The notes under the pieces were generated by a model. The model ran no database searches, was not told the DNA's origin, and saw only the letters and a program-made list of their open reading frames with translations. From the NCBI RefSeq assembly GCF_014646875.1, contig NZ_BMOC01000008.1, positions 1 to 64,000 on the forward strand: a DNA stretch of 64,000 nucleotides. Direction: 5' to 3'. This document shows, in pieces, positions 3,097 through 16,521 of this stretch (its first letter is position 1; each line of letters starts with the position of its first letter). Source of the stretch: Halobellus salinus (lineage in GTDB: Archaea; Halobacteriota; Halobacteria; Halobacteriales; Haloferacaceae). The position numbers and the translations under genes were made by a program.

Positions 3097-4932
3097 TCAG
3101 TAGCTCCGGATCTTCGGCTCGTACCGCTTGGTCTCGCCTTCGAGCAGCACCGGCCGGTACCAGAGCTCGGGCTGGCCGCTGTTCCACGACAGCAGCGTGT
3201 GTTTCAGCCAGTTCTCGTCGTCGCGCTTCTGGTGGCCCTGTCGCCAGTGGGCGCCGCGGAACTCCTCGCGGGCCAGGGCGCCGAGCGTGATCGCCTCCGC
3301 GAGGTCGATCACGTTCCGGGTTTCGATGGTGTGGATCAGATCCGTATTGAACGTCCGCGACTGGTCGGCGACGCCGACGTCCTCGTAGGCCTCGCGCGCC
3401 TCGCGGATGTCCGCCAGCGCCTCTTTGAGCCGTCCGCCCTCCCGGAACACGTTGACGTTGTCCGTCATCGACTGTTGAATCGATGCTCGGATTTCGGAGT
3501 GGTTCCGACCGTCGTCGTTGTCCAGCAGCGCTTCCACGCGGGCTCTGGCCCGCTCCGTGGTCCGCTTGACGACCGCCCCCGGCTCGAGGTTCGTGGCCCC
3601 GCCGTCGGCGACCGCCTCGCCGGAACTCACGCCGGGTTCGCCCGGCTCTACCGGGGTGTCGACGTCTCCGGGCTCCCACTCGCCGGTCTGGCCAGTGGGG
3701 ATCTCCGCCTCCGCGAGGTCGCCACCCGCAGCGTGGGACCCGGCGCGGGCGCCGAACACGATGAGCTCCGGGAGGGCGTTGCCGCCGAGCCGGTTCGAGC
3801 CGTGGACCGACGCACACGCACACTCGCCGGCGGCGTAGAGCCCGCTGATCGCGGTCTCGCCGTTCTCGTTGGTCTCGACCCCGCCCATGGCGTAGTGTTG
3901 GCCGGGCTTGACCGGCATCGGCTCCTCCAGCGGATTGACGCCCTCGAAGTCCTCCGAGAGGTGGATGATGTTCTCCAGCCGGTCGGTGATCCGCTCCTCG
4001 CCGAGGTGGCGCATGTCCAAGTGAACGTACTCGTCCTCAATGCCGCGGCCCTCGTTGATCTCGGTGAGTTCTGCCCGGGAAACCACGTCGCGGGAGGCGA
4101 GTTCGCCGTCGTTGTTGGCGTACCCGTGCTCGAACATGAACCGCTCGCCCTCGGAGTTGTAGAGGATGCCGCCCTCCCCGCGGACACCCTCGGTGATCAG
4201 GACGCCGGTCGAGGGGAGCGTGGTGGGGTGGAACTGGATGAACTCCATGTCTTCGACCGGGGCGCCGGCGCGGTACGCCATCGCGACGCCGTCACCGGTG
4301 TTGGCAACCGCGTTGGTGGTGTGGTCGAACACCTGGCCGGGGCCACCAGTCGCGAGGACGACCCCGTCGCGGGCGCGGAACCCCTCAATGGTGCCCGATT
4401 TGATGTCGTAGCCGACGACACCGTGACAGCTCCGATCCTCGGGAGCGGGTTCGTCGCTCACCGCCAGATTGAGGACGTACCACTCGTCGTAGACCTCGAT
4501 GCCGCGTTTGACCAGCTGTTCGTACATCGTATGCAGGAGCTGGTGGCCGGTCTCCGCGCCGGCGTAGGTGGTCCGCGGGAACGATAGCCCCCCGAACGGC
4601 CGCTGGCTGACCCGCCCGTCGTCGTCGCGCGAGAAGGCCATCCCCCAGTGTTCCAGTTGGATGACCTCTTCGGGGCTGTCCTGCGCGAGCGTCTCGATCG
4701 CGGGGGCGTCGCCGAGGTAGTCCGACCCTTTCATGGTGTCGTAGGCGTGATCCTCCCAAGAGTCGCCCTCTCTGAGTGCGGCGTTGATGCCGCCCTCGGC
4801 GGCCCCGGTGTGGCTCCGGACCGGGTGGAGTTTCGAGACAATGGCCACGTCGGCCCCCTCTTGTTGTGCTGCGATGGCCGCCCTGAGGCCCGCGCCTCCG
4901 GCGCCCACCACGATGACGTCGTGTTCGTGCAT
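3097..4932 (-). CDS. sdhA: Succinate dehydrogenase flavoprotein subunit
   Basis: 611 residues. Oxidises succinate to fumarate using covalently bound FAD, in complex II on the inner face of the membrane. The N-terminal Rossmann motif VVGAGGAGLRAA (residues 8-19) binds FAD. SKLHPVRSHTGAAEGGINAA contains the conserved His that takes the flavin bond. HPTTLPSTGVLITEGVRGEGG is the substrate/capping region, and the C-terminus is the usual helical domain. The ATG at 4932 fits the family start. In most haloarchaea sdhA directly follows sdhB. Here 1.7 kb intervenes, so sdhA probably uses its own promoter (TATA-like CGTTTATG, minus strand, near 5112-5120). Confidence 0.97.
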   Translation of the reverse strand: MHEHDVIVVGAGGAGLRAAIAAQQEGADVAIVSKLHPVRSHTGAAEGGINAALREGDSWEDHAYDTMKGSDYLGDAPAIETLAQDSPEEVIQLEHWGMAFSRDDDGRVSQRPFGGLSFPRTTYAGAETGHQLLHTMYEQLVKRGIEVYDEWYVLNLAVSDEPAPEDRSCHGVVGYDIKSGTIEGFRARDGVVLATGGPGQVFDHTTNAVANTGDGVAMAYRAGAPVEDMEFIQFHPTTLPSTGVLITEGVRGEGGILYNSEGERFMFEHGYANNDGELASRDVVSRAELTEINEGRGIEDEYVHLDMRHLGEERITDRLENIIHLSEDFEGVNPLEEPMPVKPGQHYAMGGVETNENGETAISGLYAAGECACASVHGSNRLGGNALPELIVFGARAGSHAAGGDLAEAEIPTGQTGEWEPGDVDTPVEPGEPGVSSGEAVADGGATNLEPGAVVKRTTERARARVEALLDNDDGRNHSEIRASIQQSMTDNVNVFREGGRLKEALADIREAREAYEDVGVADQSRTFNTDLIHTIETRNVIDLAEAITLGALAREEFRGAHWRQGHQKRDDENWLKHTLLSWNSGQPELWYRPVLLEGETKRYEPKIRSY

Positions 4933-5190
4933 TGTGTTGGTGTGTGGTTCGGTGTGTGCTGTGCGGTTCTCGCGTGGTGCAGTCTGCCTACGAGTGAGTT
5001 ACGACCGTACCCAAATGTGTGTTCCGGTCATTCCATCGGTGAAGCCATCGGCTGGTTACCCTTTGGACAGAGCCCGTTCCCTCAAAAGTACTGCTGCAGA
5101 TAGAAGGGACATAAACGAGCGGACTCGTCCGGTCGATCTACCCTTTTGATCTCGAAACCGCGATGGACCCGAGTGCGTACAGATCTATCA

Positions 5191-5466
5191 TTATCCTCGG
5201 TTCGCTAACTCCAGCACAACGCCGTCTTCTTGCAGGTCATCCCAGGTATCGGGGTGAACTTTTGAGAGATGGTTTGTGAGTCCACGCTCGGTGCGCAGTT
5301 CGCGGCCACACACGGAGCAGCGGTATCGATCGCCACGCTGAGCCAGCGATTCGCCGTGAATCTGCTTATGATGGATTCGCATCGCCCGTTCACTCCCGAA
5401 GTCGTCCCGATCACAACTCGGGCAGCGGACAGTCTTTTCGAACTCGTCGAGGGTCTGTTGGGTCAT
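5191..5466 (-). CDS. Small two-zinc-finger protein
   Basis: 91 residues. Two C2H2-like fingers: CPSCDRDDFGSERAMRIHHKQIH (residues 15-37) and CSVCGRELRTERGLTNHLSKVH (residues 50-71). Both have the x-L/M-x-x-H-x(3-4)-H layout of DNA- or RNA-binding fingers, uncommon in archaeal housekeeping genes. Its ATG overlaps the stop codon of the HNH gene (ATGA), so the two are translationally coupled. It may help target the nuclease or regulate the pair. Part of the cargo between sdhB and sdhA. Confidence 0.75.
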   Translation of the reverse strand: MTQQTLDEFEKTVRCPSCDRDDFGSERAMRIHHKQIHGESLAQRGDRYRCSVCGRELRTERGLTNHLSKVHPDTWDDLQEDGVVLELANRG

Positions 5467-5864
5467 CGTTCACCTCCGTCAGCCACGGCTACTGACTCTT
5501 GAGACTCACTTACTTCTCGGACGACTTCCTCCTCGAAATCGGCCTTCGGGATCCGCCAGACCTCCTCGTCACTGTCGAATCGGGCCGTCGGGAGCTCCCG
5601 AAAGAACTGGAGGAACGTACCGAAAGAGTCGGTATTCATTTTACCTGTGCTCCTGAAATCGACTGTGGGAGCCGTCGCCTGCTCGTGTGACGCATCGTGA
5701 CATTGGCGGCACAGGAGGACAAGATTGGACATCCTATCGGATCCTCCTCGGCCTCGCGGCACGATGTGGTGGACGTCGAGCGTCACGTCGGGACCCGAGG
5801 CCCGACAGTTGGCACACTGCCCTCGGTCCCGAACGTGGACGGCTTCCCTGGTTTCTTTATCCAT
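5463..5864 (-). CDS. HNH endonuclease
   Basis: 133 residues from the ATG at 5864 (MDKETREAVHVRDRGQC). An upstream ATG at 5969 would add 35 residues that look non-coding. The HNH fold is clear: first zinc pair CANC (residues 17-20), core HHIVPRGRGGSDRMSNLV (35-52), second pair CRQCH (55-59). The second His of HH is the likely catalytic base. The C-terminal half (80-133) is unassigned and polar. HNH enzymes of this small type occur in mobile elements, phages and restriction systems. It forms a two-gene operon with the downstream zinc-finger gene and lies inside the sdh operon. Confidence 0.85.
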   Translation of the reverse strand: MDKETREAVHVRDRGQCANCRASGPDVTLDVHHIVPRGRGGSDRMSNLVLLCRQCHDASHEQATAPTVDFRSTGKMNTDSFGTFLQFFRELPTARFDSDEEVWRIPKADFEEEVVREVSESQESVAVADGGER

Positions 5865-6048
5865 CTCGATCACCTCTGGCCGAAGGCGAGAGCCGTAGCT
5901 ACCGGTATCGTTAGCTTTGGCCCCTTCAGCGGGCCAAAAACCCTCTCTCGCGCTTCGACCTACCTCCACCTGTATTGTGGTATCTGCAAAAGCGTTCTGA
6001 AGGGCATATTCTGTGATTTTTTATATACCCTCAACAGTTGGCAAAGTA

Positions 6049-6423
6049 ATGAGTAACGAGTGGAGGGAAGGTTATGAACTTATTTCGACAGCGAAAATTA
6101 GGACCGTACTTGAAGGAAAGAAACCTGATGGTGTCCTCACCGAAAAAATAAGATACAGAACAATTGACAGAGACACGGGTAAGGAGTATATCAGTGAATC
6201 AAGGGTCCAAGCCCTCGCGGTCGGGATACTGATCGAAAATTACGGTATAGACCCAGAGGAACACAATAGCGATTGTATCCCGATTGAGATTGTTACAGAC
6301 AGTAACCCTGCTATTGTTGCATATCTGCTTGGAGCACTGGGTTACAGCCGAAGGGACGTATGTCAAATTCTTGATATCTCTAACCAAACGGTAGCCAAGT
6401 ATATCGCCAGAATGAGACGGTAG
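6049..6423 (+). CDS. HTH protein of foreign appearance
   Basis: 124 residues from MSNEWREGYELIS. A TATATA box at 6021-6027 sits about 26 bases before this ATG, which supports a leaderless start rather than the GTG/ATG codons upstream. The C-terminus (LGYSRRDVCQILDISNQTVA, residues 97-116) is a helix-turn-helix of the sigma-70 region 4/MerR-like type. The N-terminal 80 residues are alpha/beta and unassigned. Codon use is visibly AT-rich (AAA, ATA, GAA, TTA) in contrast to all flanking genes, which points to recent acquisition, perhaps from a virus or plasmid. It is antisense to the sdh operon. Confidence 0.75.
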   Translation: MSNEWREGYELISTAKIRTVLEGKKPDGVLTEKIRYRTIDRDTGKEYISESRVQALAVGILIENYGIDPEEHNSDCIPIEIVTDSNPAIVAYLLGALGYSRRDVCQILDISNQTVAKYIARMRR

Positions 6424-6457
6424 TGCAACTGAGAGACTAATCTTCCTGCTGTGTAGT

Positions 6458-6480
6458 GAAACTACACCGCTCGTAGTTTC
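6458..6480. repeat. Inverted repeat downstream of the HTH gene
   Basis: GAAACTAC (6458-6465) pairs with GTAGTTTC (6473-6480) across a 7-nt loop. A third copy, CTGAAACTAC, spans the sdhB stop codon region (6672-6681), inverted relative to 6472-6481. This may be a terminator for the HTH gene or an edge of the inserted segment. Confidence 0.4.
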
Positions 6481-6675
6481 AGTTCTACCTACGGTGACGG
6501 TACGATCATACCCCCGAGACAAAGAACGGGCGTTCGCTTCCGATAGCGACGACTGCGTCCCGAAACCTCTTTTTACTCGTTACCGTCAGTCGCGTCTCTT
6601 GTGTGCCGTCGGCACCGAGTAGATCCTGACTAACGTGATTTCTATATAAAAACGTGAATTTATATTAAGCTGAAA

Positions 6676-7563
6676 CTACCAGAACTTCAGGTTGTTCTTC
6701 ACGGCTTCGCGTTTGATCTCCTGGATGTGCTCCGTGAGGGGAATGTCCTTCGGGCAGACTTCCGTACACGAGAACTGGGTCTGACACCGCCAAACGCCGT
6801 GTTCCTGTTCAAGGATCTTCAGCCGCTGCTGTTTCATCTCCTCGCCCTCGCGTTCGTCCATCGTGAAGCGGTACGCCTTGTTGATGGCGGCGGGGCCGAG
6901 GTACTCGTTGTCGCCGGCGGCGACGTTGCACGACGACATACACGCACCGCACCAGATACACCGCGTCGACATCTTCACCTTCTCGCGGTTCTCGGGGGTC
7001 TGACGCTGCTCTTCGAGTTCGCCGTCGGGGTAGTCGTTCGTCTGGAAGTACGGCTCGACCGCCTCCATTTGGTCGTAGAAGTGTTGCATGTCCACCACGA
7101 GATCCTTGACAACCTCGGCGTGGGGGAGGGGTTCGATCCGGACCGGCGCCTCCAGATCCGAGAGCTGGGTCTTACAGCACAGCCGCTGTTGGCCGTTGAC
7201 GAACATGGCGTCCGACCCACAGACCGCCTGCCGGCAGGAGTGCCGGAAGGTGAGACTGGAGTCGTAGGTGTCCCGAGCGTACATCAGGGCGTCAAGTACG
7301 GTCATCCCCTTCTCGAAGGGAACGTGGAAATCGTCGAACCGGGGTTCTTTTTTACCCGCGATCTCGGGGTCGTACCGGAACACCTTCAGGTGGTAGGTGT
7401 CGTCATCAAGCGCCTTGTCGGCCTCCTCGGCCTGACGCCGTCGGTCGGCCTCGCCGGCGCGGTCACGCTTGCTCGCCAGCCGGCGCTCCTGGGGCGCGGC
7501 CGTCGGCTCCGCGTCGGTTTCGGTCGATTCTTCTTCGACTTGGTCTGGGAGTTGTGTGCTCAT
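6676..7563 (-). CDS. sdhB: Succinate dehydrogenase iron-sulfur subunit
   Basis: 295 residues. Passes electrons from the SdhA flavin to the membrane anchor through three Fe-S clusters. After a charged N-terminal extension of about 50 residues, the ferredoxin-like domain holds the [2Fe-2S] ligands (SCRQAVCGSDAM, then CC in LCCKTQ). The C-terminal domain holds CIWCGACMSSCN and CTEVCPKDIP for the [4Fe-4S] and [3Fe-4S] clusters. The last residues NNLKFW are typical. It follows sdhD by 15 bp, so it is co-transcribed with sdhC and sdhD. Confidence 0.96.
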   Translation of the reverse strand: MSTQLPDQVEEESTETDAEPTAAPQERRLASKRDRAGEADRRRQAEEADKALDDDTYHLKVFRYDPEIAGKKEPRFDDFHVPFEKGMTVLDALMYARDTYDSSLTFRHSCRQAVCGSDAMFVNGQQRLCCKTQLSDLEAPVRIEPLPHAEVVKDLVVDMQHFYDQMEAVEPYFQTNDYPDGELEEQRQTPENREKVKMSTRCIWCGACMSSCNVAAGDNEYLGPAAINKAYRFTMDEREGEEMKQQRLKILEQEHGVWRCQTQFSCTEVCPKDIPLTEHIQEIKREAVKNNLKFW

Positions 7564-7578
7564 CGGTTGTGGTTCGGG

Positions 7579-7950
7579 TTAGATCGGGACGCCGCCGGCC
7601 CACGCGAGTGCGGTTCGGACGCCCTGGACGATCAGAACGATGCTTGCGACCCCGAGGACCGCTTTCACGGCCGTTTCCTGGGTGCCGGAGAGCCCCTGGT
7701 TGACGAGGGCGTTGTAGACGCCGTTGACGCCGTGGAACGTCGCGGTCAGCAGAAACAGGATCATGAGCGAGAAGTAGGTGAGCTCCTGCATCCGGCCTTG
7801 GGACATTCCGAACGTGACCTCGTCGGCGTGGTTGACGAAGTGCAGGAGAAAGAAGTGAAAGGCCAACACGGCCACGAGGAACGCCGCGGTGATGCGCTGC
7901 CACAGCCACCGGCGGCCGCCGACCTTGAACGAGGAGTAGCGTTCGGCCAT
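7579..7950 (-). CDS. sdhD: Succinate dehydrogenase membrane subunit D
   Basis: 123 residues. Membrane anchor of complex II. It has three hydrophobic helices: residues 18-40 (ITAAFLVAVLAFHFFLLHFV), 57-78 (LTYFSLMILFLLTATFHGV) and 97-118. The His residues in FHFFLLHFVNHAD and TFHGVNGVYN are candidates for haem b ligation or the quinone site. Its ATG follows the sdhC stop codon without a gap, and sdhB follows 15 bp later. Confidence 0.88.
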   Translation of the reverse strand: MAERYSSFKVGGRRWLWQRITAAFLVAVLAFHFFLLHFVNHADEVTFGMSQGRMQELTYFSLMILFLLTATFHGVNGVYNALVNQGLSGTQETAVKAVLGVASIVLIVQGVRTALAWAGGVPI

Positions 7951-8346
7951 TCAGCCGAACACCCCGGCGAGAAACGTCGGCACGCTCGCGACCACAATGG
8001 CGCCGGTGAGAACGAGCGACGCGTAGAAGCTCTTGTCCTGCGATTCCAGCCCGACCCCGAGGTCGACGAACAGCAGTCGAAGGCCGTTGAGGATGTGGAA
8101 CACCGCCACGGCCAACAGCCCGACCTCAAGGATGCGGACGACGAGCAGGCTTTCGAGCGACTGGATCGTCGTCGTGTAGGCGTCGGGGCTCTGCAGCGCG
8201 GTCGAGAGGACGGCGATGTGGGTGAACAGATACCCCACCAGCACCCACCCGGTGAACTTGTGGAAGATCCAGGCCCACATACCGGCTGTGAACTCCCGCC
8301 ACCGGCCGAAGTCCTCGACGAGGCCCCGATCGTAAGACTGACTCAT
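7951..8346 (-). CDS. sdhC: Succinate dehydrogenase cytochrome b subunit C
   Basis: 131 residues from [21 protein letters not shown]-like element TCTATACTGG (minus strand, 8371-8380) lies about 26 bases upstream, favouring this ATG over the one at 8370. Three membrane helices; [20 protein letters not shown] (residues 25-44) carries the conserved H-x-x-G and downstream His of SdhC cytochromes, and [19 protein letters not shown] contains the second haem-binding His. It is the promoter-proximal gene of the sdhC-D-B set. Confidence 0.9.
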
Positions 8347-8441
8347 ACTCCGCTGAAGGTCGGGCCGCAACCAGTATAGACCTTACGTGTGTTGGCCGCG
8401 GTCGGTTATGGCCGCGTTCCGCGTCTCCGCCGCTCTTACCC

Positions 8442-9461
8442 TCACGATGTCGCGTCCCTCGTCTGCTCGCGCTCGACAACCCGCCGCACGTCGTCGTCGA
8501 GTTCGATCAGGTGACACAGCGGGTTGCCAGGGTAGACCACGGGGTTCTCGAGGACACCCACCAACAGCCCGGTGAACGGCGCCTCGACCGCGACGGTGTC
8601 GCTCTTGAACGGGTCTGTCAACGTACAGATCCGGTCGCCTTCCCGCACGAGTGACCCCGACTCGTGGTGCATGTCGACGATCCCGCCGACGTCGGCGCGG
8701 ATCCAGGTCCGCTCGTTGGTGTCGTGGATGACCGTCCGCCACCCGGGCCACCGGACAACGGACGGTTCGCGGAGTTCGTACTCGGCGAAGACGCTCTCGA
8801 CCCCGGCCAAGGCGTCGTCGATGAGGTCCCGCTGGAACCGGTGGGCCTCCCCCATCTCGACGGTCACGGTCGGAATCCCCGAACGGGTCGCCTCGGACCG
8901 CAGGAGGCCGTCGCCGCCTTGGCTGTCGATGATGACGTTTGAGCCGAACGCCTGCGCCAACCGCGCGACCGCGTCGTCGGACATGTCAGCACGGACGTGG
9001 AGCATATTCGTCCGCCCGCGGGTTGAGGTGTGGAAGTCGATCCCGAAATCGCACGGCGCGATGAAGTTGTCGAAGATCCGGGCGGCCATCCGCTTCGCGC
9101 TCGTCGAATCCTCCCGCCCCGGGAACGATCGGTTGAGGTCGCGGTCGTAGATCGGAAGGTAGCGTTGCTGGGCTAAGAAGCCGGGGACGTTCAGAACCGG
9201 GAGACACACGAGCGTGCCCACCAGGTCCGAGAGGTCCCACTCGTAGGCCACTTCACGGACCACCTCGATGCCGTTGAGTTCGTCGCCGTGGGAGGCTGCC
9301 GAGAGAAAGACCGTAGGGCCCTCGCGCTCGCTGTTGACGACTGTGACCGGGATCCGGATCGGGTCGCCGAGGTAGGTCTCGCTGATCGCATAGCGGAGGT
9401 TCCGGCGGGTGCCGGGGGCAACCCGGCCGCCGTCGTACTCGAACGCCGCGTCGCTACCCAT
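8442..9461 (-). CDS. Succinylglutamate desuccinylase/aspartoacylase-family zinc hydrolase
   Basis: 339 residues from the ATG at 9461 (MGSDAAFEYD). A CGTTTATG box (minus strand, 9483-9491) about 26 bases upstream supports this start. M14-like zinc carboxypeptidase fold: His58 and Glu61 in SHGDE and His144 in DFHTST are the zinc ligands, and Glu202/Glu205 in VEMGEA are candidates for the catalytic base. The C-terminal 80 residues form a small beta domain, as in AstE/AspA-like proteins. The family cleaves amide bonds of N-acyl amino acids. The substrate is not known. It is divergent from a RimK-retropepsin fusion, suggesting it hydrolyses an amide made by that ligase (inference). Confidence 0.85.
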   Translation of the reverse strand: MGSDAAFEYDGGRVAPGTRRNLRYAISETYLGDPIRIPVTVVNSEREGPTVFLSAASHGDELNGIEVVREVAYEWDLSDLVGTLVCLPVLNVPGFLAQQRYLPIYDRDLNRSFPGREDSTSAKRMAARIFDNFIAPCDFGIDFHTSTRGRTNMLHVRADMSDDAVARLAQAFGSNVIIDSQGGDGLLRSEATRSGIPTVTVEMGEAHRFQRDLIDDALAGVESVFAEYELREPSVVRWPGWRTVIHDTNERTWIRADVGGIVDMHHESGSLVREGDRICTLTDPFKSDTVAVEAPFTGLLVGVLENPVVYPGNPLCHLIELDDDVRRVVEREQTRDATS

Positions 9462-9692
9462 ACCCGCGCTCGCCACCCTGGAGACATAAACGGTCGCAAT
9501 TCGTGTCTGGGAGTCCCGCCCGTCAACCATCGGCATAGGGTGTCCGCCGGGGCGCTCCGACACGAACCGATAGCAGCGATTACATCCGGTGACACAACGG
9601 CGTGGAGTCGAGCGAGCGGAGGGGGCGACAGGTCGTGCAGACAGTTCCGGGCGGTCGGCACCTCTTTAGACGGCCACGAGAAGACAACGGGT

Positions 9693-11045
9693 ATGACTGA
9701 CGACGGAGGTTCGGTCCGAGTCGGCGTGCTCTCACTACACAACAGCAAGGAGACCAAAGCGATCCTCAACGCGGTCGACGACCTCGGCCACGAGGGCGTC
9801 TGGCTGCGCCGCGAGAACACCGCCGTGTCGGTGAGAGACGGCGACGTCACCATCGAACCGGAGGTCGATATCGTGGCGAACCGGCTCCTGCTCTCGAACT
9901 CGGAGGCGCCCGTGGAGCTGCTGGGGCTGGCGACGACGTTCGAGCGGATCCGGCCGATGCTGAACGAACCCGCTGCGGTGCTGACCGCGATTCACAAGTT
10001 CGCGACGGCGGCGACACTCGCGAACTGGAACATCGCGGTCCCGGACGCGCTGTTGGCGCTGTCGAACGACCGCTTGAACAAGGGCCGGGGCGGGTTCGGT
10101 GACGTCGGGGTCTACAAGTCCGCGATCGGGACCCACGGGGGCGGAACGTGGAAAGTCGACCTCACCGAGCCGGTCAACCCGCAGGTCGGCAACAGACAGG
10201 CCTTCCTCCAGTCGCTTATCGAGCGCGACGACGACACGCACCGGGACCTCCGCGTGTACGTCGTCGGCGGCGAGGTGATCGGCGCGATGTACCGGTACGC
10301 CCCCGAGGGGGAGTGGCGGACCAACGTCTCCTTCGGCGGGGAGGTCGCCGACGCCACCGACGACATGCCGGAGGCTGCGAGGGAGACTGCGCTCTACGCC
10401 GCCGACGTGATGGGGCTCGACTACGTCGGCGTCGACCTGATCGAGGGTGACGACGGATGGTTCGTGCTGGAGACGAACCCGACGGCGGGGTTCCGCGGGC
10501 TCCACCGCGCGACCGGCCGGAGCCCCGCGCCCCACATCGCGAAACTCGCGATCGAACGCGCCGGCGGCGAGGTCGACGACGACCGCGTCGCGGAACTCTC
10601 GGCGACGCTCGACGACTCGCGGCCGGCGGGGATGCCGCGGATCGAGACGGGGCCGACCGGCGAGCGGCCGACCATCGGCTACATCGAGGAGGTTGTCGTC
10701 TCGGGCACCAGCGGGTCGACGCAGGCCGCGGCCAAGTCCGACACCGGCGCGACGCGGACGAGCATTGATACGTCGCTTGCGGCCGAGGTCGGGGCCGGGC
10801 CAATAAAAAGCATGACGCGCGTGCGCTCGGGGTCGTCGAGTTCCGGCACCGCCCGGCCGGTTGTGGATCTCGTCATCGGGATCGGCGGCACCCAACACAC
10901 CGTCACCGCGAGCGTCGGCGACCGCTCGCACATGGACTACCCGCTGTTGCTCGGTCGCGACATTCTCAAACATTACCAGGTGGACGTGAACCGGCGAGCA
11001 GACGACGGAAGCGACGCGGACGGCGAGCCGGAGTTTCTCGAGTAG
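9693..11045 (+). CDS. RimK-type ATP-grasp ligase fused to a RimB-like retropepsin domain
   Basis: 450 residues from the ATG at 9693. A CTCTTTAGA box at 9663-9671 supports a leaderless start. Residues 1-320 are a RimK/LysX ATP-grasp ligase: an N-terminal pre-ATP-grasp domain, a central nucleotide fold (LNKGRGGFGDVGVYK, 128-142), and the Mg-binding end FVLETNPTAGF with Glu260 and Asn262. Residues 325-432 match the domain once called ATP-dependent zinc protease (PF05618): DTGATRTSID (350-359) has the aspartyl-protease DTG triad and LLLGRDILKHYQVDV ends the fold. RimK enzymes add amino acids, often glutamate, to peptides, and RimB-type domains are associated with RimK in pseudomonads. Here both are in one chain. 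Confidence 0.85.
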   Translation: MTDDGGSVRVGVLSLHNSKETKAILNAVDDLGHEGVWLRRENTAVSVRDGDVTIEPEVDIVANRLLLSNSEAPVELLGLATTFERIRPMLNEPAAVLTAIHKFATAATLANWNIAVPDALLALSNDRLNKGRGGFGDVGVYKSAIGTHGGGTWKVDLTEPVNPQVGNRQAFLQSLIERDDDTHRDLRVYVVGGEVIGAMYRYAPEGEWRTNVSFGGEVADATDDMPEAARETALYAADVMGLDYVGVDLIEGDDGWFVLETNPTAGFRGLHRATGRSPAPHIAKLAIERAGGEVDDDRVAELSATLDDSRPAGMPRIETGPTGERPTIGYIEEVVVSGTSGSTQAAAKSDTGATRTSIDTSLAAEVGAGPIKSMTRVRSGSSSSGTARPVVDLVIGIGGTQHTVTASVGDRSHMDYPLLLGRDILKHYQVDVNRRADDGSDADGEPEFLE

Positions 11046-11105
11046 CGATGGGCGCGGTCGGGTCGCCGGCAGTACTTTACGTTCACACCGGTCTATATAC
11101 CACCG

Positions 11106-12218
11106 ATGGGGTCGGAACCGGTTGAAGAACTGCCCGAGGATCTGGAGGCGTGGGTAGCCGAGCGAGCGGCCGACAGCGACGCCTCACGGGTGGACGTCGT
11201 CCGCCGGCTGCTTGCGGCCCACAAACTGCTCGACGACCACCCCGGCTGGCTGGCTGACGCCGCTGTTCCCGGCCGCACGGACGTGACGGTCGGCCCGCCA
11301 AGCGGGGTTGATGAGTTCGACGCCCGCGCGAGCGGTCTCGCAGAACGGGTCGAGGTGTTGGAGGGTGATCTCGACGAGCAGATCGCCGACGTGCGACAGC
11401 GGGTCATCCAGGTCAAACGGGAGGCCGACGCGAAGGCGCCGGCCGACCACGACCACCCGTCGCTCGAGCGCCGGGTCGACGAGGGGTTCGAGAACTACGA
11501 GGAGGTGTTGGAGTATCTCACCGAGCGGGCCGAGACGCTGGAAGACGAGGCCGACGACCGGAGCGCGAGGCTCCGTACCGTTGCGAACGCGGTTGTCGAT
11601 CTCAGACGCCGGGTGGCGGCACTCGAACGCGAACGCGAGAAGCGCGATGCCGTCGCGAGCCTGCGCGAGGCGGCGAACCGGCGCGGCGTCCCGGAGGCGG
11701 CGTGCGGCTCCTGCGGGGAGTCGGTCCACGTCGGCCTGCTCGATGAACCGGCGTGCCCGCACTGTGAGTCGTCGTTCGACGGCGTGGAGTCCGGCGGGTG
11801 GTTCAGACCCGACACGTTGACTGTCGGCGACCGCCCCGCCCTGGAGCCGGGGCCCGCGGCATCAGGACCCAACGCAACCGGCTCGCCGGAGACAACCGGG
11901 TCGTCGGGGGCTACGTCATCGTCACCCTCGGACGCGGGAGGGGCCGAGCCGTCCGGTTCCGATCCGTCCGCCGCGGTCGCGGGCGAGAGAGCCGAAGACA
12001 GAACCCACCAGGGGGCCGGTTCCGGCTTCGGCGACATCGTCAACGACGAGTCAAGCGGGCCCAACGGCGACGCTGAACCCGCCTCCGGCAGCCGCGGGTT
12101 CGCGGGTGACCCCGCTGAGGGCAGCGACGACACCGTGTCCGACGACCCGTTGGCGCCGGGGGGGCTGAGCGACGAGCGGACAGAGATCGACCGTGACGAG
12201 GAGGCGGATGATCGATGA
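11106..12218 (+). CDS. Coiled-coil protein with RHH-like N-terminus and a zinc ribbon
   Basis: 370 residues. Residues 8-45 (LPEDLEAWVAERAADSDASR onward) resemble a ribbon-helix-helix/CopG segment. Residues about 65-195 form a long coiled coil broken by an ADHDHPSLERR insert. Residues 200-225 hold a zinc ribbon, CGSC and CPHC. The last 130 residues are a disordered Ser/Gly/Asp-rich tail. A TATA-like CTATATAC at 11092-11099 is close to the ATG. The stop overlaps the next gene (ATGA), which encodes another acidic, Cys-containing protein, so the two probably act together. Family unknown to me; a DNA-binding or scaffolding role is a guess. Confidence 0.75.
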   Translation: MGSEPVEELPEDLEAWVAERAADSDASRVDVVRRLLAAHKLLDDHPGWLADAAVPGRTDVTVGPPSGVDEFDARASGLAERVEVLEGDLDEQIADVRQRVIQVKREADAKAPADHDHPSLERRVDEGFENYEEVLEYLTERAETLEDEADDRSARLRTVANAVVDLRRRVAALEREREKRDAVASLREAANRRGVPEAACGSCGESVHVGLLDEPACPHCESSFDGVESGGWFRPDTLTVGDRPALEPGPAASGPNATGSPETTGSSGATSSSPSDAGGAEPSGSDPSAAVAGERAEDRTHQGAGSGFGDIVNDESSGPNGDAEPASGSRGFAGDPAEGSDDTVSDDPLAPGGLSDERTEIDRDEEADDR

Positions 12219-14889: not shown

Positions 14890-14973
14890 CCGCCGACGCA
14901 GCGGGAACAACCGCCCGGTCCGTCGACACCCGAGTCGATAGTATCAGTACCCGTCGGCTGTCATGTGTGGGCA

Positions 14974-16521
14974 ATGACCGACACGACCGACGCCGTCCGT
15001 GCGGCGCTCGACCCCGATCGGCGCGCGGCCTTCCAGCGACGCGTCGAGAGCGAGGCCGAGTCGCTGCGTGACGACATCCACGCCGGCGTCTTCGACGCCG
15101 ACGGGTTCGCGGTCGGGATGGAACTCGAAGGCTACGTCGTCGATAGCGAGGGTCTGCTCGCGCCCGCCCCAGAGGACCTCTTCGGGATTGACGGGTGTAG
15201 CCAGGAGCTCGGCGTCCACAACGCGGAGCTCCACACCGACCCGGACGTGGTCTCCGACGTCGGACTGCGGCGACAGTTCGACGGGCTCGGGTCGACGTAC
15301 CGGGCGGTCCAGGCCCACCTCGACGAGGTCAACCGACGGTTCGTCCTCGACGCGCTGTGGACGGTCCCGCCCGCGGAGGGGACTCGGACGTACATCGGGG
15401 CGACAACCGAAACCGACGGGTTCGGACTCCCGACAAATATGCGCCCGGTCCCGCGGTACGTCGCGCTGGACGCCGAAATCAGGGCGCGAAGCGACGGGAC
15501 GCTCAACCTCGACATCCACGGTTTCACCTCGGCTGCGTCGATGCTCGCGGAGTCGCTCGCGACGTCGATGCAGCCACACTTCCAGGTGCCCGATCCGACG
15601 GCGGTCCCGACCTACCTGAACGTCGCCACGCGGACGATGGGACCCATCCTCTCGTTGACGTCGAACTCGCCGTTCCTGCCCACGGACCTCTCCGACGGCC
15701 ATACGGCGGAGACGGTGTTCGACCGGACACCCCACGAACTCCGGATCCCGTTGTTCGAGCGGTCGGTCGACGAGGGGTCGCACAAGTGTCGTGTGCCCGA
15801 GGACGTGCCTGACCTCGACACCCTGATCGACCGGATCGTGACGGACCCGACCCTCGTCGCCCCGCCGGACCTCGACGGGGACGCCGGCGACGGTCATCGG
15901 AGCGGGGATCCGGGCGACCGGTACCCCGCGATCGGGGCGAAGCGCGGCACCTACTGGCGGTGGGTCCGGCCGGTGTTCGGCGGCGACGTGCCCAGAGCGG
16001 CCGACGGCGACCGGGTCGATGGCGGCGACGGGGGGTCGGTGCGGATCGAATACCGACCGCTGCCGACCCAGCCGACGATCAGGGACACTGTCGGCGTCCA
16101 GGCGCTGGTCACCGGGGTGTTGCGCGGCGTCGTCGCGGCCGACCACCCGCTCGCGACGCTCCCGTGGGACGCCGCAGAGGAGTCATTCTACGCCGCGGTC
16201 GACGACGGGCCGGACGCCGACCTCCACTGGGTGACGCGGGCGGGCGACCGGACGACGGCGACACCCCGGATCTACGACGAACTGTTCGCGCTTGCGCGTC
16301 GGGGGCTCGACGAACTCGGGGTCGGCGCCGAGACGATCGAGTGGGCGCTCGCGCCGGTCGAAGCCCGGCGGGAGGCCGACCACACCGCGCCGAGCGCGTG
16401 GAAACGGGCCCAGGTTCGAGAGGCGGTCGACGCGGGGGCGTCGCTCCGGACGGCCATCGAGGGGATGCAGGCCGACTACGTCGAGCGCGCCCGACGCGGA
16501 ACACCCTTCGCTGAGTGGTGA
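14974..16521 (+). CDS. GCS2-like glutamate-amine ligase (gamma-glutamylcysteine synthetase family)
   Basis: 515 residues from MTDTTDAVRA; an ATG three codons earlier is also possible. GMELEGYVVDSEG (near residue 48) is the metal-binding E-x-E strand that opens the glutamate-cysteine ligase/YbdK fold. HNAELHTDPD, RPVPRYVALD and LNLDIHGFTSAAS are further active-site strands. The C-terminal half is divergent with a charged Asp/Gly-rich insert (about residues 290-350). Longer than typical YbdK proteins (about 370). These enzymes form gamma-glutamyl amide bonds. The acceptor is not predictable. Haloarchaea use gamma-glutamylcysteine as their main thiol, but this may be a paralogue of the enzyme making it. 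Confidence 0.75.
   Translation: MTDTTDAVRAALDPDRRAAFQRRVESEAESLRDDIHAGVFDADGFAVGMELEGYVVDSEGLLAPAPEDLFGIDGCSQELGVHNAELHTDPDVVSDVGLRRQFDGLGSTYRAVQAHLDEVNRRFVLDALWTVPPAEGTRTYIGATTETDGFGLPTNMRPVPRYVALDAEIRARSDGTLNLDIHGFTSAASMLAESLATSMQPHFQVPDPTAVPTYLNVATRTMGPILSLTSNSPFLPTDLSDGHTAETVFDRTPHELRIPLFERSVDEGSHKCRVPEDVPDLDTLIDRIVTDPTLVAPPDLDGDAGDGHRSGDPGDRYPAIGAKRGTYWRWVRPVFGGDVPRAADGDRVDGGDGGSVRIEYRPLPTQPTIRDTVGVQALVTGVLRGVVAADHPLATLPWDAAEESFYAAVDDGPDADLHWVTRAGDRTTATPRIYDELFALARRGLDELGVGAETIEWALAPVEARREADHTAPSAWKRAQVREAVDAGASLRTAIEGMQADYVERARRGTPFAEW

Follow-up and report, generated by a model that had tools for sequence, protein, structure and literature searches.

RimK is an ATP-grasp ligase that adds glutamate to a C-terminal carboxylate (PMC11957791, PMC10092738). 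In Pseudomonas, its partner RimB, a retropepsin, trims the tails of ribosomal bS6 and also stimulates the synthesis of free polyglutamate by RimK. RimB further recognises polyglutamate at the C-terminus of unrelated proteins (PMC11957791). Bacterial hybrids with both enzymes on one chain (RimBK) were described by Little et al. in 2025 in a survey restricted to bacterial accessions, namely DP2392 from Desulfotalea and proteins from Flavobacteriales and Rhodobacterales; DP2392 is an active polyglutamate protease and showed no bS6 ligation (PMC11957791). The RloA proteases are required under hypo-osmotic stress (PMC12239564).

A window of 64,000 nucleotides from the haloarchaeon Halobellus salinus contains a gene for which a fusion of RimK with a RimB-like retropepsin, divergent from a zinc hydrolase, had been predicted. 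The haloarchaeal locus shares the ligase/retropepsin pair and its catalytic motifs with the RimABK system of Pseudomonas (PMC11957791, PMC7343187, PMC10092738). It differs in that both enzymes form one polypeptide with an AstE-type partner, bS6 is absent and no RimA was seen at the locus; in addition, the pocket residues are partly changed and the protease domain is shorter than RimB. As in the bacterial RimBK hybrids, the two domains lie on one chain, but the order is RimK-RimB and not RimB-RimK (PMC11957791), which is also the order in Thioclava and Aureibacter. An adjacent AstE gene and a Glu-ended tail are present in haloarchaea, while the bacterial hybrids examined have neither. RloA-RloB-RloC of P. 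aeruginosa likewise combines a RimB-family retropepsin, to which the structure 9g59 belongs, with an ATP-grasp protein; in that system, the protease is secreted, RloB is a membrane protein, the components are unfused, no AstE is reported and the role is in hypo-osmotic tolerance (PMC12239564).

The fusion of a writer and an eraser is therefore not new in principle, as had been supposed, given the hybrids published in 2025 (PMC11957791). What appears to be new in haloarchaea is the RimK-RimB architecture, its near-universal conservation, the cross-domain link to AstE and the glutamate terminus. A survey of amidoligases by Iyer and colleagues from 2009 may have noted related neighbourhoods. In the literature searched, neither a link in this sense between RimK and a desuccinylase or aspartoacylase nor a reported activity of any haloarchaeal member was found, and the AstE link is not put forward as a first report.

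Domains of the fusion protein

The fusion gene (9693..11045, plus strand) starts with ATG and encodes 450 residues, with the ligase first and the protease second. The RimK-type ATP-grasp ligase domain comprises residues 1-300 (9693..10592, plus strand). PF08443 matched residues 102-279 with an E-value of 2e-20 and 73.6 bits against a gathering cut-off of 21, and the nearest solved structure by sequence is E. coli RimK 5zct (E 6.6e-15). The Mg ligands of the ATP-grasp fold lie in Glu260-Thr-Asn262 (10470..10478, plus strand), as placed by the alignments with orthologues and with E. coli RimK.

The second domain, a compact RimB/RloA-like retropepsin, covers residues 325-435 (10665..10997, plus strand). 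It was matched by PF05618 (Zn_protease/RimB) at residues 370-435 with 38.8 bits against a cut-off of 27 (E 1e-9) and by the Pfam model Asp_protease_2 at residues 343-423. Aligned with bacterial and methanogen RimB in hhalign, the haloarchaeal domain reached a probability of 96.7% over 115 columns (E 3.6e-10), and its best PDB match by sequence is the RloA/RimB-type protease 9g59 (E 4.6e-11). The DTGA motif at residues 350-353 (10740..10751, plus strand) contains the predicted catalytic Asp350 and is invariant in chromosomal orthologues; together with Glu260 and Asn262, it is invariant in all 20 rows of the orthologue alignment. A second conserved retropepsin motif, LLLGRD at residues 418-423 (10944..10961, plus strand), aligned to MLLGR of RimB. 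Approx. 20-30 residues of bacterial and methanogen RimB are missing from the haloarchaeal domain; this gap lies after the DTGA strand and ahead of the next conserved block. The RimB equivalog NF052261 did not match the fusion at E<=0.1 among the matches listed, and RloA models matched it at 35-40 bits, which is below their own cut-offs. The retropepsin fold is backed by sequence profiles; AlphaFold models of the whole fusion (mean pLDDT 51, 20 sequences) and of the C-terminal domain alone (pLDDT 39, 42 sequences) were too low in confidence for a fold search. With PF08443, PF05618, Glu260/Asn262, DTGA and LLLGRD all present, the proposed combination of ligase and retropepsin on one 450-residue protein was confirmed, including the PF05618 similarity of its C-terminal domain above the cut-off.

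A profile built from the C-terminal domain of the haloarchaeal proteins was searched against 393 genomes of the phylum, and copies were confined to haloarchaea. Near-full-length matches fell in open frames that could hold the whole fusion, with the exception of one shortened frame, and the search also returned a small number of solo paralogues, 117-135 residues long. Two plasmid paralogues from Natrononativus and Natronosalvus (L118:5023-6330 and L190:4023-5348) keep the ligase residues and have lost DTG, with NPAH and DPTS in its place; they have no AstE neighbour and both end in Glu-Glu. No Rfam match was obtained in positions 8300-11300 and no tRNA within the window.

The ligase missed the cut-off of TIGR00768 (RimK family alpha-L-glutamate ligase) with 126 vs 143.4 bits and clearly that of the equivalog NF007764 (bS6--L-glutamate ligase RimK) with 57.6 vs 331 bits. 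The scores for MptN (108.8 bits) and LysX (88.9 bits) were higher than the one for the S6 ligase, and the equivalog cut-offs of MptN, LysX and CofF were all missed. Within the RimK tree, the haloarchaeal ligase forms a clade of its own (96/97) outside the group of bacterial and methanogen RimK and closer to MptN and LysX, with long branches. The haloarchaeal ligase keeps ATP-grasp residues and several residues of the acceptor site (S14, R64, R187, E260 and N262). Since R64, R187, E260 and N262 are common to LysX and MptN, they do not single out glutamate. Two positions that contact poly-Glu in Pseudomonas RimK (PMC10092738) are altered in the fusion, namely R8 to Leu15 and S14 to Glu20, so that the added amino acid could differ from glutamate. 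The row of E. coli RimK in this alignment agrees with the residues displayed in the 5zct match. Judged by these residues, glutamate is a likely but unproven substrate of the fusion ligase.

The AstE-type neighbour and co-inheritance of the pair

The divergent neighbour gene (8442..9461, minus strand) starts with ATG and encodes an AstE/AspA-type zinc amidohydrolase of 339 residues. PF24827 (AstE_AspA_cat) matched it with 162 bits against a cut-off of 25 (E 1.4e-47). The zinc motif His58-Gly-Asp-Glu61 (9279..9290, minus strand) is invariant in an alignment of 17 rows, and so are His144 and Glu202, the other likely active-site residues. The open reading frame agrees with its earlier description, and the zinc motif is intact. 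Its nearest solved structures are the DoeB-type 3na6 and 6twl. It shares the catalytic domain family and the zinc motif with the DoeB, AstE and aspartoacylase amidohydrolases, but it misses all their equivalog cut-offs (DoeB 87.8 vs 402.7, AstE 18.8 vs 305.7 and aspartoacylase 34.9 vs 180). In the AstE tree, the haloarchaeal proteins group instead with AstE from rim clusters and apart from AstE-like paralogues of the same genomes; the support for this is 99/97 with DoeB and other distant rows left out and falls to 82/69 once these are added.

Both genes start from a shared region of 231 bp. A TATA-like TTTATG (9485..9490, minus strand) lies 24-29 bp ahead of the start codon of AstE and is kept in Halobellus, Haloferax and relatives. 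On the other side, a promoter-like CTCTTTAG (9662..9669, plus strand) precedes the start codon of the fusion by approx. 24-31 bp and shows a conserved CGGCA...CTTT in the alignment. The leaderless promoters that had been proposed for both genes are consistent with these conserved elements approx. 24-31 bp from the two starts, which are no proof of them.

At a threshold of E<=1e-100, orthologues of the fusion were found in 258 of 293 sampled genomes of the order. Both genes were present in 256 genomes and neither in 31, while the fusion occurred alone in 2 and AstE alone in 4. Thirteen of the genomes counted as lacking a fusion match were those that did not appear among the positives. Of the six genomes with just one of the two genes, four are incomplete (72-86%). 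Fisher's test gave p 3.8e-35, a value that ignores relatedness; the joint loss inside six genera, in which other species keep both genes and the genomes are at least 94% complete, is a better measure of the coupling. Both genes thus belong almost to the core of haloarchaea, and their co-occurrence in other genomes bears out the original prediction. In 65 of the 71 named loci, 101-228 bp (<300 bp) separate the two divergent genes, and such pairs also occur on plasmids of Halorarius and Halolamina. In one family (f7, loci L169-L174), both genes are retained although they are not adjacent; approx. 1-4 kb lie between them there, usually with a gene resembling a GNAT acetyltransferase. Haloferax also has the pair, and the genetics of this genus makes the role of a RimK without bS6 directly testable.

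Neighbour frequencies were obtained from targeted searches of the loci with full flanks (n=63). An sdh block (window 3097-8370) adjoins AstE and the fusion in 33 of these 63 loci and in most of the distant families examined. This sdhCDBA operon is the sole other recurrent neighbour, and no co-conserved gene for a target was found at the locus. A GCS2-like open reading frame (14965-16521, 518 aa), which the original prediction had brought into connection with the system, was ruled out as a part of it because it matched no Pfam or NCBIfam family and lies near the fusion in just 4 of the 63 loci.

Clusters of rimB, rimK and astE in methanogens and bacteria

The same three families occur side by side beyond haloarchaea. 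In Methanosarcinaceae, all 15 loci that were fetched and had a strong match to RimB contained a tight rimB-rimK-astE operon. Weaker PF05618 matches were left out of this count; they belong to a second methanogen family (L157-L162) of approx. 180-200 residues that covers profile positions 25-137 and has no rimK or astE neighbours. On annotated plasmids, the trio was found as adjacent genes in Salinivibrio, Vibrio europaeus, V. nigripulchritudo, Acaryochloris and Phaeobacter. Counter-examples are the RimB-RimK hybrids of Thioclava and Aureibacter and several lone rimK genes, which do not have AstE next door. The clusters of Methanosarcinaceae, Vibrionaceae, Phaeobacter and Acaryochloris consist of three separate genes, in contrast to the fused rimK-rimB of haloarchaea, and their RimK scores as true S6-ligase type (433-480 vs 331 bits), which the haloarchaeal ligase does not.

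These clusters indicate that a module shared across domains has AstE as a genuine third member. Together with co-occurrence and co-loss, they support the proposed coupling of the fusion to its AstE-like neighbour, and the haloarchaeal locus is probably a form of a three-enzyme RimK-RimB-AstE module that is genetically linked and co-inherited. The Rim module thereby becomes an enzyme set with a third hydrolase that extends across domains and beyond the modification of bacterial ribosomes.

Concerning the target, bS6 (PF01250) was not matched in six haloarchaeal and Methanosarcinaceae genomes, while it was matched in 10 control bacteria. As it is absent from the archaeal genomes tested, ribosomal bS6 cannot be the target, which agrees with the earlier view that the target differs from that of pseudomonads. 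RimK from Methanosarcinaceae (L151:6964-7869 and relatives) nevertheless passes the S6-ligase equivalog with 472-480 vs 331 bits. Its automatic names are thus likely wrong given that no S6 gene was found, and this is a warning that the name of S6 ligase can be attached to archaeal rimK genes in genomes that have no gene for S6.

The hybrid gene of Aureibacter (L219:5559-8329) is followed by three DUF1843 open reading frames, a radical SAM protein and a methyltransferase, an arrangement that resembles a peptide-modification cluster.

The glutamate terminus and a proposed cycle

The protein ends in a variable acidic tail (10998..11042, plus strand) with Glu450 as last residue. Of 149 distinct fusion proteins, 145 have glutamate as last residue, 120 of these with Glu-Glu, and Asp is the last residue of none. 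The haloarchaeal open reading frames nearby, which were used as background, end in Glu in 20% and in Asp in 13% of cases. In a set of 125 distinct tails, Glu makes up 97% of the last position, whereas the entropy from position -3 inward is 2.3-3.6 bits. On a tree made without the tail, the last residue changed 4 times compared to 39-77 changes at positions -3 to -12. The partner AstE has no such preference (8 of 87), and the tails of the bacterial hybrids, separate RimK and separate RimB that were examined are not Glu-ended. Terminal Glu is retained in divergent plasmid paralogues including two without the protease motif.

An ATP-grasp ligase is fused to a retropepsin with its catalytic motif and is divergent from a dedicated AstE/AspA-type hydrolase with which it is kept and lost. 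The best overall explanation, and a fairly probable one, is a cycle that builds, cuts and recycles C-terminal (poly)glutamate without involvement of ribosomal S6. The ligase would spend ATP to attach amino acids, with alpha-L-glutamate as the most likely one, to a C-terminal carboxylate. The resulting chain would be cut internally by the retropepsin, which probably acts as a homodimer, and the zinc enzyme would free either the fragments or the last residues so that they can be used again. Fusion of the domains would fix the coupling of RimB and RimK at one to one.

Since RimK extends a C-terminal carboxylate with Glu, a Glu end on the chain of the ligase itself suggests self-modification or a regulatory pseudo-substrate. 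The sequences point to the fusion's own Glu-terminated tail as the best candidate for an acceptor, primed in cis or between subunits and perhaps serving as primer for polyglutamate; the fusion may thus carry its own acceptor. A self-contained tail machine, in which the ligase builds (poly)glutamate on its own C-terminal Glu, the retropepsin trims it and AstE recycles the products, is a tentative extension of the cycle. If it were true, the enzyme would serve as substrate for itself, in a lineage that lacks the ribosomal target. The Glu-ended tail makes this a concrete and cheap prediction on the intact mass of one protein. The Glu terminus could also serve a purpose other than ligation.

It is likewise possible, though doubtful, that a separate haloarchaeal protein is modified at its C-terminus as bS6 is by RimK and that the fusion's own Glu tail plugs an active site as regulatory pseudo-substrate. 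Bacterial RimK does act on a separate protein, RimB accepts unrelated proteins with C-terminal polyglutamate (PMC11957791), and the lack of Glu-ended tails in the bacterial enzymes fits this as well. However, sdhCDBA and no target gene recurs at the locus, and the Glu terminus is kept even in copies without the protease motif.

A cycle on a small metabolite or cofactor appears unlikely. In that case, the ligase would be of the MptN, CofF or NAAG-synthase sort, the AstE-like enzyme would remove the acyl group from an N-acyl amino acid or peptide, and regulation would be the main role of the retropepsin. DoeB and aspartoacylase relatives, to which the AstE-like gene is similar, act on small N-acyl amino acids, and the ligase scored higher for MptN and LysX than for the S6 ligase. 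Against this stand the three missed equivalog cut-offs of MptN, LysX and CofF, the grouping with rim-linked AstE and the retropepsin motif that is invariant in chromosomal copies.

The same invariance of DTGA in chromosomal orthologues argues against a retropepsin domain that drives the ligase allosterically and is no protease in vivo, with AstE as sole hydrolase; one bacterial hybrid is, moreover, an active protease (PMC11957791). This quite improbable reading draws on the stimulation of RimK by RimB in P. fluorescens (PMC11957791) and on the Natrononativus and Natronosalvus paralogues that keep the ligase residues without DTG. That AstE and the fusion share a promoter region by ancestry only and are unrelated in function can practically be dismissed: the adjoining sdhCDBA operon is also widely kept, so that linkage alone is weak evidence, but the two genes were lost jointly in six genera, are both retained where they are not adjacent (f7), occur as paired plasmid copies, recur as the same trio both in methanogens and in several lineages of bacteria, and are found one without the other in just 6 of 293 genomes.

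For the preferred cycle of building, cutting and recycling, the surrounding genes allow a guess at a role in stress or ionic balance. The bacterial and methanogen rimB-rimK-astE clusters (L151-L155, L163, L166, L185, L220 and L221) are repeatedly flanked by genes for mechanosensitive channels or for transporters of Mg, K or other cations, among them MgtE, CorA/ZntB, CNNM, TrkA, an ion channel and cation ATPases or antiporters. The guess concerning ionic balance is a reasonable one that derives from these neighbours of the clusters and from the hypo-osmotic role of RloA (PMC12239564). Genes for universal stress proteins adjoin several plasmid-borne copies of the fusion or of rim genes (L118, L189 and L185).
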